Positions 54,593-62,307 of a stretch of 64,000 bases of DNA are shown here, in pieces. Position 1 is the first letter of the stretch. Each line of letters starts with the position of its first letter. The DNA comes from Halomonas huangheensis (GTDB lineage Bacteria; Pseudomonadota; Gammaproteobacteria; Pseudomonadales; Halomonadaceae). The notes under the pieces are model-generated. The model was not told the origin of the DNA. It saw nothing but the letters and a program-made list of their open reading frames with translations, and ran no database searches. The translations under genes were made by a program, and so were the position numbers. The stretch spans positions 930,001 through 994,000 of the forward strand of contig NZ_CP013106.1 in assembly GCF_001431725.1 (NCBI RefSeq). Direction: 5' to 3'.

Positions 54593-55978
54593 ATGAGTGG
54601 GTTGCAGCGCTGCTGTTGGTGGGTAGGTGATACTGGCGGGGAGTCTGCCCGTCTCTACGATGGTCTGGTAGCCAATGGCTGGAGCCTGGTGCCGTTACCG
54701 CTGCCGCTGGCGGATTGCCGAATTTCCGGTAAGGATGAATGCCGAGTGGGTGTTGTCACCCTGGCGGACCTTGAAGTGAATGATCTTCGGCAACTGGAGC
54801 CGTTGATGTTACGCAGCGCCAGGCCCTGGATCGTCGTGGGGTGTGACGCGGACCTGGAAGATCCCGAGAAGCGCCGAATCATTGCCCACCTCAGTCATGG
54901 CATGGTGACTCGAGAGGTGGATATCCTGAGGCTGTCGATACTGCTTGAGCATGGTGCTGATCTGGCACGCCTTCAGCAGCGTGAGCGTGAACTTCAGCAG
55001 ACCAGTCGCAGTCGTGATGAGCGGGATGATTATGAGTTTGTCGGCACCACGCCTGCCATGTGGGACCTGTTCAAGACCATCCGCAAGGTGGCAGCGGTAG
55101 ATGCACCGGTTTTCATCAGCGGCGAGTCCGGTACCGGCAAGGAACTGACCGCTCAGGCCATTCATGAGCGCTCTTCGCGCAGCTATCTGCCGTTCCATGC
55201 CATCAATTGTGGTGCCTTGCCGGAGCACTTGATCCAGTCCGAGCTGTTCGGCCACGAAAAGGGTGCCTTTACAGGGGCTTCTCAACGCAAGATCGGGCGT
55301 TTCGAGGCGGCGGACGGTGGCACTCTGTTTCTCGATGAGATCGGCGACCTGCCACTCGACCTTCAGGTCAATCTACTGCGCTTTCTTGAGACCCGAAGTA
55401 TACAGCGCGTTGGAGGGCTGGAGGATATTCCCGTGGATGTTCGAGTCCTCGCCGCGACCCATGTCAATCTGGAACGGGCGGTCGAAGAAGGGCGATTCCG
55501 TGAGGACCTCTTCCATCGTCTCAATGTCCTGCATATCCGGGTGCCGGCGTTGCGTGAACACACGGAAGACATCGAGATTCTGGCGCGTTTCTTCTTCGAG
55601 CGTTTCGCCAACGAGAAGGCGTCATGTCTCAAGGGGTTCTCGCGCGAAGCGTTGACGGTCATGCAGCGCTACCATTGGCCGGGCAACGTACGAGAGCTGA
55701 TCAATCGCGTACGCCGGGCGATGGTGATGTGTGAGAACCGACTGATCCAGCCTGAAGATCTTGGTATAGAGCGACGTGGACCCAACCGCCACCAGGTGAC
55801 TCTCGAGGAAGTCCGCGAAGCGGCCGAACGAGAGGCACTGCTTGCCGCTCTGGGCCGTAATCGCTACCGAGTCAATGCTGCTGCCACTGAGCTGGGTGTC
55901 TCACGAGTCACCATCTATCGCTTACTCGATAAACACGGTATTTCGCGCACACCACAGGAGGAAGCTTCCTTCGGTTGA
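54593..55978 (+). CDS. sigma-54-dependent Fis-family activator, VpsR-like
   Basis: 461 residues. N-terminal ~145 residues are a degenerate receiver-like domain resembling that of VpsR (no clear phospho-Asp pocket). Then AAA+ core: Walker A GESGTGKE (177-184), the sigma-54 contact loop GAFTGA (224-229), Walker B TLFLDEIGD (244-252), and R-finger region. The C terminus (NRYRVNAAATELGVSRVTIYRLL) is a Fis-type HTH. VpsR binds c-di-GMP and activates biofilm matrix genes in Vibrio; by analogy this should activate the adjacent sigma-54 promoter at 56467 and the Fap-like operon. The GAFTGA motif is intact, so it should be active. Confidence 0.88.
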   Translation: MSGLQRCCWWVGDTGGESARLYDGLVANGWSLVPLPLPLADCRISGKDECRVGVVTLADLEVNDLRQLEPLMLRSARPWIVVGCDADLEDPEKRRIIAHLSHGMVTREVDILRLSILLEHGADLARLQQRERELQQTSRSRDERDDYEFVGTTPAMWDLFKTIRKVAAVDAPVFISGESGTGKELTAQAIHERSSRSYLPFHAINCGALPEHLIQSELFGHEKGAFTGASQRKIGRFEAADGGTLFLDEIGDLPLDLQVNLLRFLETRSIQRVGGLEDIPVDVRVLAATHVNLERAVEEGRFREDLFHRLNVLHIRVPALREHTEDIEILARFFFERFANEKASCLKGFSREALTVMQRYHWPGNVRELINRVRRAMVMCENRLIQPEDLGIERRGPNRHQVTLEEVREAAEREALLAALGRNRYRVNAAATELGVSRVTIYRLLDKHGISRTPQEEASFG

Positions 55979-56327
55979 TGTCGGAAACGGGCTGCCTCCC
56001 GGCAGCCTGGTTCTTTGCTATCTGTAACGCTACTGAGACATCCTGTGTTGGGCGGTATCCCTCTCTGATTGATCTAAAAAACATCAACTATATCAATAGC
56101 CTGCCTCTACTCCGTCTGGCGGCAGTCGTTTGTTGTGGCCTGCCCCTGCGCCATAGAGCGCTGGATGATGCGCCGCTGTTACTGCGCTGACATCCATCCT
56201 TCCCCCGTCTTGTCCTCTTGACCGCAAACCCTTATGAGAAATGGTTTTTTCAAGCACTGAAGCCAGCCTTGTCTGGCTTTCAGCGGGATGTCTGGTCCAT
56301 TCTTGTTTCACTCTTGGCTTGATGTAG

Positions 56328-56339
56328 TCAACATGTTGA
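56328..56339. promoter_or_regulatory. palindrome, candidate enhancer site
   Basis: TCAACATGTTGA is a perfect 12-bp palindrome centred about 133 bases upstream of the -24 element, the usual distance for a sigma-54 enhancer. Binding protein assumed, not shown. Confidence 0.45.
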
Positions 56340-56439
56340 TATTAAAGAAAAATATTGTCTATCAAGCCGTTTGTGAATGACGGTGTCGTGGATGTTGTTT
56401 CATCTGCTTAACAGTTTCTGTTCAAGCAAAAATATAAAT

Positions 56440-56453
56440 TTGTTTAAAAACAA
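56440..56453. promoter_or_regulatory. palindrome adjacent to the sigma-54 promoter
   Basis: TTGTTT-AA-AAACAA, a 14-bp palindrome ending 14 bases before the -24 box. Its position is close for an enhancer; it may be an IHF/repressor site or a by-product of AT richness. Confidence 0.35.
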
Positions 56454-56466
56454 TTAGTTATTAAGT

Positions 56467-60282: not shown

Positions 60283-61086
60283 ATGCTGGGACAACGAAAA
60301 CAGCAAGTGCGCCAGTATTCGCGGGTGTGGTGGGTACTGGCTCTGAGCTTGGGCACACCGGCAGCCATGGCTGCCACAACCGACTTTTCACCGCTTGAGG
60401 AAGCCGCTGAGTCGCGCCAACTCAATGACGAGGAACTGGGGCAATTACGTGGTCGCTTTGTCGATAAGGGCCGTGTGATGTTCTTCGGTGTTGAGATGGT
60501 AAGCCATTGGCGTACGGCGTCAGGTGACCACCTCACGGCGGGTACTCGGATGATCGGCGATCTTATGCAGGGGCAGCCCAGCGTGCGCTTTCAACCGGTC
60601 ATCAACAGCTTCAGTACCGATGAGGTGGCCAGACTGTCAACGGGAGGTAGCGGCGCTACGGTCGTTGATCGCGGAACCCGTAATGCGTCCGGGGTTGTGC
60701 AATCGATACAGGCCGGGGGGAATTTCAATATTGCCAACAACGGCCTGTCTCTCGACGTTATGGACGCTTCGGATTTCCGGTCGGGAGCACAGGGTGGAGT
60801 GAAGGGAGGTCGAGTAGAGGCGCAAGGCGCCAACAATTCGCGGATGAGCATTTCCATGCAGCCGCGAGACATGAGTGTGGCCATCGATCTGCCGGGGCAC
60901 GGCCGTATCGAACAGGCCATCGTACCGGGTAGTGGGTTGCGGCAGTCGATACAGCTGACCAGTAATCTGCAGCGGGTTCAGAACCTGACGCGACTGCAGC
61001 TGTACATGGGTAATCAGCCAGGCGGCAGCCATAGTGAAATGCCTGGAGTGTTGAATGGTATTCGGGCGGCGGCAGCACTACGCTGA
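60283..61086 (+). CDS. FapE-like secreted protein
   Basis: 267 residues from the ATG at 60283; a longer in-frame start at 60115 lies inside the peptidase gene and would remove the signal peptide. Signal peptide ends near residue 30 (GTPAAMAATT). Residues 47-60, LNDEELGQLRGRFV, resemble the motif of the first operon gene and are followed by FFGVEMVSHW. The rest is Ser/Gly/Asn-rich beta-type sequence (SIQAGGNFNIANNGLSLDVM). In Pseudomonas FapE is a minor fibre component. Role inferred by position. Confidence 0.76.
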   Translation: MLGQRKQQVRQYSRVWWVLALSLGTPAAMAATTDFSPLEEAAESRQLNDEELGQLRGRFVDKGRVMFFGVEMVSHWRTASGDHLTAGTRMIGDLMQGQPSVRFQPVINSFSTDEVARLSTGGSGATVVDRGTRNASGVVQSIQAGGNFNIANNGLSLDVMDASDFRSGAQGGVKGGRVEAQGANNSRMSISMQPRDMSVAIDLPGHGRIEQAIVPGSGLRQSIQLTSNLQRVQNLTRLQLYMGNQPGGSHSEMPGVLNGIRAAAALR

Positions 61087-61195
61087 AGCTGGATGGCATT
61101 GGTTCCGACACTGATACCCATTGCTCGAGACACTCGTATCAGAAGCGAGCGATATATCAAAACCATAAAGATCTAAAGGGACAAGGGAGAAAGAC

Positions 61196-62281
61196 GTGAA
61201 CAACAGCTATCGTCGCGTGGTGCGTCCACCCTTTGTGGGCGCCGTCGTTCTGGGCTTCGGAGTCACGGCTTCCGGCCAGGTGCTGGCCCAGACGACTATT
61301 GGCACCGAGCAGCAGGCAGCACGAGAGGAATCCCAGAGCCGCAGTGTCCAGGATATCTATCGTGAAGAGCATGCGCTGTTCTCGGATCGTCTGACCGTCG
61401 AACCGGGTATCACCTACACCTATTCCGACCGTGATAGCCTCGCTCTGCGAGGCTTTCTGGCTTTGGACGCTATTTTTCTCGGTGAGTTGAATCTCGACAA
61501 CGTCGAGAGCCATATCACCACCATGGAGGTGAATACCCGCTACGGCTTTACCGACCGTCTCGAAGCCAGCATCAATGTTCCCTTCGTGTACCGAACCACC
61601 GAACTGGAATCGATTGGGGGGGATCTGTCCACCGAGCAGAATACTTCTGCCAGCGTCAGTGATTCGGGGCTGGGAGATATCACTGCCAATCTATCTTATC
61701 GCCTGCTGCCGGAGACCTACGAGCGCCCGGATGTCGTGGTCAGCCTCGGGGTTCGAGCACCCACCGGCAAGGACCCCTACGGCATCGACCTCAACCAGGA
61801 TCCAGACAATACCAACCTGTATGTGCCAGAGGAGTTACCGACCGGCAACGGTGTATGGGGGATTACCGCTGGCGTCTCGGTATTGAAGACCGTGGACCCG
61901 GCGATCGTATTTGCCAACCTCGGTTATACCTACAACATCGAGGACGAGTTTGACGATATCTCTGGTGGCGAAGGCAATCAGCGAGCCAAGGTCGATCTGG
62001 GCGACAGCATCTCGGCCGGCTTTGGTACCGCGTTTGCGCTCAACGAGCGCTTGAGTCTCGCCTTGTCCTACTCTCATGAGCACATTCGTGAAACCAGGAT
62101 CACTCCAGACGGTGGCAGCAGCACCAAGGTGGTCGGTAGTGGCGCCAATATCGGTGTGTTCAATATCGGCGGCACCTATGCACTGAGTGATTCCACGTCT
62201 GTGGTGACCAATCTCGGGATAGGCATGACCGAAGATGCTTCCGATATCCTGCTGACCTTCAGAATGCCGTTTCAGCTGTGA
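61196..62281 (+). CDS. FapF-like outer-membrane beta-barrel
   Basis: 361 residues from a GTG at 61196 with AAGGGAGAA upstream. Signal peptide ~1-30 (SGQVLAQTT), a short polar helical segment (QQAAREESQSRSVQDIYREE), then alternating aromatic/polar strands ending in an aromatic residue (MPFQL). It belongs to the phenol_MetA-deg/transporter-like barrel group that contains FapF. FapF is a trimeric pore that exports amyloid subunits; this protein would be the exit channel for the products of the preceding genes. Last gene of the operon. Confidence 0.83.
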   Translation: MNNSYRRVVRPPFVGAVVLGFGVTASGQVLAQTTIGTEQQAAREESQSRSVQDIYREEHALFSDRLTVEPGITYTYSDRDSLALRGFLALDAIFLGELNLDNVESHITTMEVNTRYGFTDRLEASINVPFVYRTTELESIGGDLSTEQNTSASVSDSGLGDITANLSYRLLPETYERPDVVVSLGVRAPTGKDPYGIDLNQDPDNTNLYVPEELPTGNGVWGITAGVSVLKTVDPAIVFANLGYTYNIEDEFDDISGGEGNQRAKVDLGDSISAGFGTAFALNERLSLALSYSHEHIRETRITPDGGSSTKVVGSGANIGVFNIGGTYALSDSTSVVTNLGIGMTEDASDILLTFRMPFQL

Positions 62282-62283
62282 TG

Positions 62284-62307
62284 AGCTGCGGGCTGTGGCC
62301 CGCAGCT
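62284..62307 (+). terminator. hairpin at the end of the Fap-like operon
   Basis: AGCTGCGGGC-TGTG-GCCCGCAGCT, a perfect 10-bp stem three bases after the stop codon, no T tract. Related GAGCT-rich sequence continues to about 62400. Confidence 0.6.

Follow-up and report, generated by a model that had tools for sequence, protein, structure and literature searches.

The window analysed here, a stretch of 64,000 nucleotides from Halomonas huangheensis (NCBI RefSeq assembly GCF_001431725.1, contig NZ_CP013106.1, positions 930,001 to 994,000 of the forward strand), contains a fap operon for functional amyloid that begins with an additional gene, here called X, and the predicted products of X and fapE share a short leader motif behind their signal peptides. 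FapD, a predicted exported protease encoded in the same operon, fairly likely recognises this common leader and trims both proteins before fibre export. A broader proposal, advanced more tentatively, is that one periplasmic export pathway of the double-glycine type underlies both the Fap operons and a sister cluster: a stand-alone C39 peptidase would read an R-G-R, R-G-K or R-G-G leader on its cargoes (FapE, X, some FapF linkers and perhaps FapA) and release them to a barrel, and X would be a seventh, overlooked Fap protein with a part in capping, seeding or anchoring the fibre. The seventh gene, the leader common to X and FapE, and a FapF barrel without its coiled coil are new, and the regulation is of a known kind.

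The + strand between 54593 and 62281 carries a sigma-54 activator gene and an intergenic promoter element, followed by seven genes in the order X-fapA-fapB-fapC-fapD-fapE-fapF, so that the order A-B-C-D-E-F is kept with X added in front. A sequence-only reading of the window had proposed a Fap-type operon of a halomonad, and on this point NCBIfam Fap models and matches to solved FapC and FapF structures agree. The window proteins scored 18.4 (FapA), 90.5 (FapB), 174 (FapC), 286.5 (FapD), 111 (FapE) and 378.1 bits (FapF). Because all six scores lie below the curated equivalog cut-offs (for FapE, 111 against a cut-off of 250), the proteins are considered related but divergent. Judged by its sequence, the locus is a genuine fap operon of a halomonad kind, related to but divergent from the Pseudomonas type. 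Pfam families were assigned to the activator, the C39 peptidase and the barrel among these genes. The nearest relatives are halomonads, the window FapD being 91% identical to that of Halomonas cupida.

The common leader and the peptidase FapD

Gene X (56599..56946, +) encodes a small protein with a signal-peptide-like start and, at residues 49-60, the leader motif INDNTLEQVRGR (56743..56778, +). The corresponding motif of FapE, LNDEELGQLRGR, occupies residues 47-58 (60421..60456, +) of a 267-residue protein whose gene, with its start corrected to 60283, lies after fapD (60283..61086, +). The profiles of X and FapE align with each other in 23 columns only (profile-profile probability 95.6, E 1.2e-8), and in three genomes a search with the X profile alone independently reaches the N-terminal part of FapE, with E-values from 2.7e-4 to 5.7e-4. 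The leader was thus found by sequence as the one alignable stretch of the two proteins; gene order, promoter and C39 residues were likewise read from the letters.

The common pattern is L-x-D-x-x-L-x-x-hydrophobic-R-G-R/K. As a regular expression it was found in 38 of 45 FapE pieces among the open reading frames (ORFs) of the halomonad loci (2.6 expected from shuffles) and in 30 of 33 X proteins (0.65 expected). It was matched by one of 37 activators and one of 21 FapA, and by none of 41 FapC, 48 FapD-type, 47 FapF-type and 20 FemAB proteins of these loci. Two of 62 non-overlapping ORFs of the window matched, FapE and one other; the window X is missing from that set because an overlapping ORF displaced it. 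A looser expression found the motif in 77 of 79 FapE proteins, the two misses being short, and in 70 of 80 X proteins, from searches in which the best 8000 or so candidates were scored for each. By eye, all 17 FapE proteins of a sample drawn from the class carry it. The R-G pair is invariant in 46 aligned, diverse FapE sequences (chosen rows: 28 of the 79 searched proteins, 17 from the loci, and the window).

The spacing of the motif corresponds to that of substrates of C39 peptidases, for which the consensus L(-12)xxxE(-8)L(-7)xxxxG(-2)G(-1) has been described, in which positions -10 to -4 form a helix and position -4 confers specificity (PMC6959990). The helix modelled in FapE at 49-59, though of low confidence, likewise starts at -10. 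At -12, -7, -4 and -2 the FapE leader has L, L, L and G, and X has I, L, V and G; a test for the canonical double-glycine leader thus found suitable residues at all four positions. The fapD gene (59538..60242, +) encodes a C39 peptidase with a signal-peptide-like start and the catalytic residues Cys63, His148 and Asp164, and the protein matches the C39 protease domain of known structure (6mpz) with E 1.2e-8. Rouse et al. (2017, PMC5557850) reported that the FapD cysteine is required for FapC secretion and that FapE is the sole operon protein with complete N-terminal loss; the target of FapD was called unclear, no canonical C39 sequence having been seen. Since FapD is a C39 peptidase with a target so reported, the leader is a directly testable candidate for it.

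Gene X and its distribution

Searches of Pfam and NCBIfam with the window X gave no match, and a direct protein search with it found three relatives. When ten aligned members were used, at least 80 proteins were recovered, the strong ones from halomonads where named and the weaker ones (E 1e-5 to 1e-2) from Methylophilaceae, Burkholderiales, Acidiferrobacteraceae and others. In 51 chosen members (43 of the 80 searched proteins and eight rows from the loci) the leader leucine, a V-x-L-W-D-E motif and a C-terminal glutamine are invariant. The window X carries the leader, the motif as VILWDE, and the C-terminal half of a Fap-like repeat; its C-terminal G-x-x-N-x-Q resembles, in the reader's judgement, half a Fap repeat.

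Of the 275 genomes of the family, 41 gave a match to the FapE model, and one halomonad locus was taken from each (the window, L001, L004-L007 and L042-L076). Of these loci, L074 (G110) is counted as empty since the stretch taken there ended before the hit, and L075 and L076 run to the ends of their contigs, where a missing X is not evidence. X is present at 32 of the 41. The full order FemAB-activator-X-A-B-C-D-E-F occurs in 18, including L071 with its fapE in two pieces, and 20 have a FemAB-like gene beside the activator. Eight loci lack FapA; in these the activator gene follows fapF in reversed orientation, which is also its arrangement in Pseudomonas. Beyond the family, X was found in 11 of 369 genomes drawn from the class, ten of them non-halomonad and belonging to nine further families. 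X adjoins fap genes in eight of these ten (seven families), in most cases immediately ahead of fapA or fapB; in the other two it lies in a sister C39/barrel cluster. Of the class-sample genomes with FapE, 7 of 16 have X.

A sister cluster of a barrel and an activator, in five of six cases also with a C39 gene, lies divergently beside fap in six of the 41 halomonad loci. The example in L062 (28-4449; the others are L057, L063, L064, L067 and L068) has an activator, a FapF-like barrel and a C39 peptidase scoring 130.9 bits on FapD and 121.6 on FilB, together with a FapE-like R-G-G protein and a small leader protein. Clusters of a similar kind that include X occur in L097 and L098. In five of the six, a FapE-like protein has a true R-G-G at the place of the leader (LEEAELEELRGG, IDESQLEEMRGG); these proteins match the FapE profile with probability 68.8 and E 4.5e-5.

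Individual loci vary further. The Halomonas cerina cluster is spread over two contigs, L007 with B-C-D-E and no X, and L147 with FemAB-activator-X-A-B-C-F. Halomonas sp. NO4 (L002, L073) has tandem fap clusters, X-B-C-D-E followed by X-A-B-C-D-E-F. In L094 the order is activator, fapC, X, fapB, fapD, fapE, fapF. L072 has fapD, fapE and fapF in pieces and L071 has fapE in two, which may reflect decaying copies or sequencing errors.

No extra fap gene and no FapD leader was described in the literature searched, most subscription papers lying outside its coverage. Six fap genes and no X are counted in the consulted sections of the survey of Dueholm (2013, PMC3792158), a 2025 analysis of 1602 clusters (PMC12822426) and a further study (PMC12392863).

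FapF and the competing explanations

The last gene, fapF (61196..62281, +), encodes an outer-membrane barrel that matches the NCBIfam FapF profile from 89 to 418 of 420 and solved FapF (5o65) with E 3.8e-86, and that has no N-terminal coiled coil. In the texts consulted, this coiled coil is reported to be essential for secretion in Pseudomonas (PMC5557850) and present in all homologues (PMC6173795); it is a trait of FapF and does not serve to define Fap systems. It was found in none of 39 halomonad FapF ORFs by a crude composition rule, under which 35 scored zero and four borderline proteins (L054, L056, L060 and L073) were set aside by eye. Outside the halomonads it is present in 17 of 20 FapF, and L093, L096 and L121 are also without it. 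Of 22 FapF-type proteins from outside the halomonads, three have a leader-like motif in the linker that joins coiled coil and barrel (L092 VPDSELERLAGR, L125 PTDRELGHLRGK and the sister barrel of L097 VSSADLDTQRGG); none of the 39 halomonad FapF has it.

Several observations weigh against FapD cleaving the leader and against X as a general Fap component. Position -1, where the canonical test expects Gly, Ala or Ser, is Arg in the window X and FapE and R or K in the common pattern, so that a similar way of working is proposed and not membership of the canonical leaders. Published work describes a C39 cleft that is narrow and specific for double glycine (PMC6959990), so FapD may bind the leader and not cut there. 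Of the two positions that form the hydrophobic knot of the peptidase, one is seemingly Lys or Met in FapD, as read from the alignment. In Pseudomonas FapE about the first 70 residues are missing from the spectra (PMC5557850), a stretch longer than the leader by itself. Since trypsin is expected to cleave at the leader arginines, these spectra, in our reading, cannot place the cleavage site. The expression also matched 14 of 40 FapB (1.7 expected), 12 of them at the start of a Fap repeat, and the leader pieces gave no match to bacteriocin-leader families. A leader-like stretch in FapA (LSDSQAAGVSSG, 57276..57311, +) is uncertain and, compared by profile, shows no significant match to the leaders of X and FapE. 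The FapE model has a beta domain at 64-243, and its helix at 49-59, which starts at -10, has low confidence (pLDDT about 61), while the X model is poor (pTM 0.21). Finally, among the 16 genomes of the class sample that have FapE, nine gave no X match, nor was X found in the nine loci of these genomes, so X is not essential to every Fap system.

These last genomes, together with the Pseudomonas and Oceanisphaera fap loci L008-L011, which have no X, fit an explanation considered unlikely but the strongest of the competitors, namely that the fap operon is an ordinary one carrying a dispensable additional gene, in which the shared leader is a docking or export tag for the FapF barrel while FapD acts elsewhere. 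The unsuitability of R or K at -1 for a C39 cut agrees with it, as does the suggestion of Rouse et al. (PMC5557850) that FapE may be targeted to FapF by its N-terminus. A general tag of this kind accounts less well for a spacing that fits C39 leaders in particular and for the true R-G-G at the same place in the sister clusters, and the leader accompanies FapF both with and without the coiled coil. Considerably less probable is that the main target of FapD is the FapF linker, whose cleavage would release a barrel plug, with the leaders of FapE and X secondary. Linker processing was considered by Rouse et al. (PMC5557850), and a 2025 review (PMC12822426) names FapE and FapF as the proteins that FapD is believed to process. 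The three linker motifs are in keeping with this, but the other 19 of the 22 FapF-type proteins are without one, and in the halomonads fapD and the FapE leader remain although no FapF has either the motif or the coiled coil. That the operon is decaying or forms no extracellular fibre in this organism, as the fragmented genes of L071 and L072 and the split H. cerina cluster might suggest, is very improbable, since all seven ORFs of the window are open and its repeats, catalytic residues and promoter are intact.

In the reading in which FapD acts on the leader common to FapE and X, X-fapABCDEF would be expressed behind the sigma-54 promoter, signal peptides would take all products across the inner membrane, and FapA would keep FapB and FapC soluble. 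FapD would dock the leader helix through its hydrophobic residues at -12, -7 and -4 and cut at or next to R-G-R/K, and this trimming of FapE and X would open fibre export. The trimmed proteins would leave with FapB and FapC through FapF, gated here without a coiled coil. In the weakest step, X with its half repeat would be a minor capping, seeding or anchoring subunit at the end or base of the fibre.

Other operon genes, regulation and known systems

The two small genes after the promoter both have signal-peptide-like starts, as the sequence-only reading had noted. Its description of them as two unrecognised genes in the FapA position stands for X, which has no named family; the second is a divergent fapA (56952..57524, +; the ORF opens at GTG 56943, and ATG 56952 was taken as the start). 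Its NCBIfam FapA score is 18.4 bits, and profile-profile comparison of 21 halomonad FapA with 16 Pseudomonas-type FapA gave a match of probability 94.7 (E 6e-8). FapA is often missing in known Fap systems. The proposed triple-repeat subunits were also borne out, fapB (57521..58180, +) and fapC (58236..59456, +) each encoding three Fap repeats (57665-57781, 57851-57967 and 58064-58180; 58521-58637, 58719-58835 and 59298-59414, all +), with FapC matching solved FapC (9nqd) at E 4.8e-20. Likewise, the C39 peptidase, FapE-like protein and outer-membrane barrel complete the B-C-D-E-F order, all on the + strand. The window FapC contains no cysteine; a C-terminal CxxC is absent from FapC in 39 halomonad loci and present in 5 of 21 other loci. 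Directly upstream of the activator lies a FemAB-like gene (53104-54348, +; PF04339, 450.8 bits). The operon seems to end at fapF, because the ORFs downstream (62469-63550, +) look like the housekeeping genes for FtsB and IspD.

The activator gene adjoining the operon (54593..55978, +) encodes an NtrC-family, BrfA-like protein (Pfam Sigma54_activat, 233.8 bits) with Walker A at residue 177 and GAFTGA at residue 224. It had been called VpsR-like, a label that does not hold, since VpsR (E 4.3e-53) is surpassed among solved structures by both ZraR (E 1.5e-80) and FleQ (E 3.7e-73). The -24/-12 promoter element TGGCACGCGAATTGC (56467..56481, +), also predicted from the sequence, is the sole exact match to TGGCACNNNNNTTGC in the window, where 101 positions match with up to two mismatches. 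In 31 of the 32 X-first halomonad loci, such an element lies ahead of X with no more than one mismatch. In Pseudomonas fluorescens PF07, the RpoN promoter of fapA-E was mapped by 5'-RACE and is BrfA-dependent, with brfA reversed, downstream and next to fapF (PMC9207406); BrfA is reported to sense c-di-GMP (PMC13101488). The Pseudomonas loci L008 and L009 have an activator at this BrfA position. An adjacent enhancer-binding protein, which the sequence-only reading had offered as a point of difference, was therefore already known, and because RpoN and BrfA control is known in Pseudomonas, regulation is not the novelty. The suggested divergence in accessory factors is retained, but in another form than the one named, in X, the coil-less FapF and a FapC without C-terminal CxxC. 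Like BrfA, the adjacent activator would switch the operon on, possibly through c-di-GMP.

The conserved leader on FapE and X names residues for peptide tests of FapD, a protease whose cysteine is required for amyloid secretion. The presence of X at the head of many fap operons, uncounted in the consulted texts of surveys as large as 1602 clusters, and the existence of barrels that lack a coiled coil regarded as universal and essential both call into question a fixed six-gene machine and are relevant to pore gating.

Among known systems, the C39 double-glycine leader peptidases PCAT1 and LahT resemble the proposed pair, insofar as FapD shows similarity to C39 domains and has their catalytic Cys, His and Asp, and the Fap leader fits at -12, -7, -4 and -2. 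FapD differs in being stand-alone, with a signal-peptide-like start and without an ABC transporter domain, and the leader differs in its R or K at -1. The Fil system is related, the window FapD scoring 110.6 bits on NCBIfam FilB and FapF 68.6 bits on FilC, but both score far higher on the Fap models (286.5 and 378.1 bits). With BrfA of P. fluorescens PF07 the window shares a sigma-54 activator encoded beside fap and an RpoN promoter, and the activator is 46% identical over 423 residues to that beside fapF in Pseudomonas L008, a comparison with the protein at the BrfA position and not with BrfA's own sequence. The closest parallel is Pseudomonas fapABCDEF, which has homologues of all six genes in identical order, three repeats in FapB and FapC, an RpoN-type promoter and an adjacent sigma-54 activator. 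The halomonad operon of the window differs from it in its extra first gene X, in the absence of the coiled coil from FapF and of the C-terminal CxxC from FapC, and in an activator that lies upstream on the same strand, whereas that of Pseudomonas is convergent and downstream.

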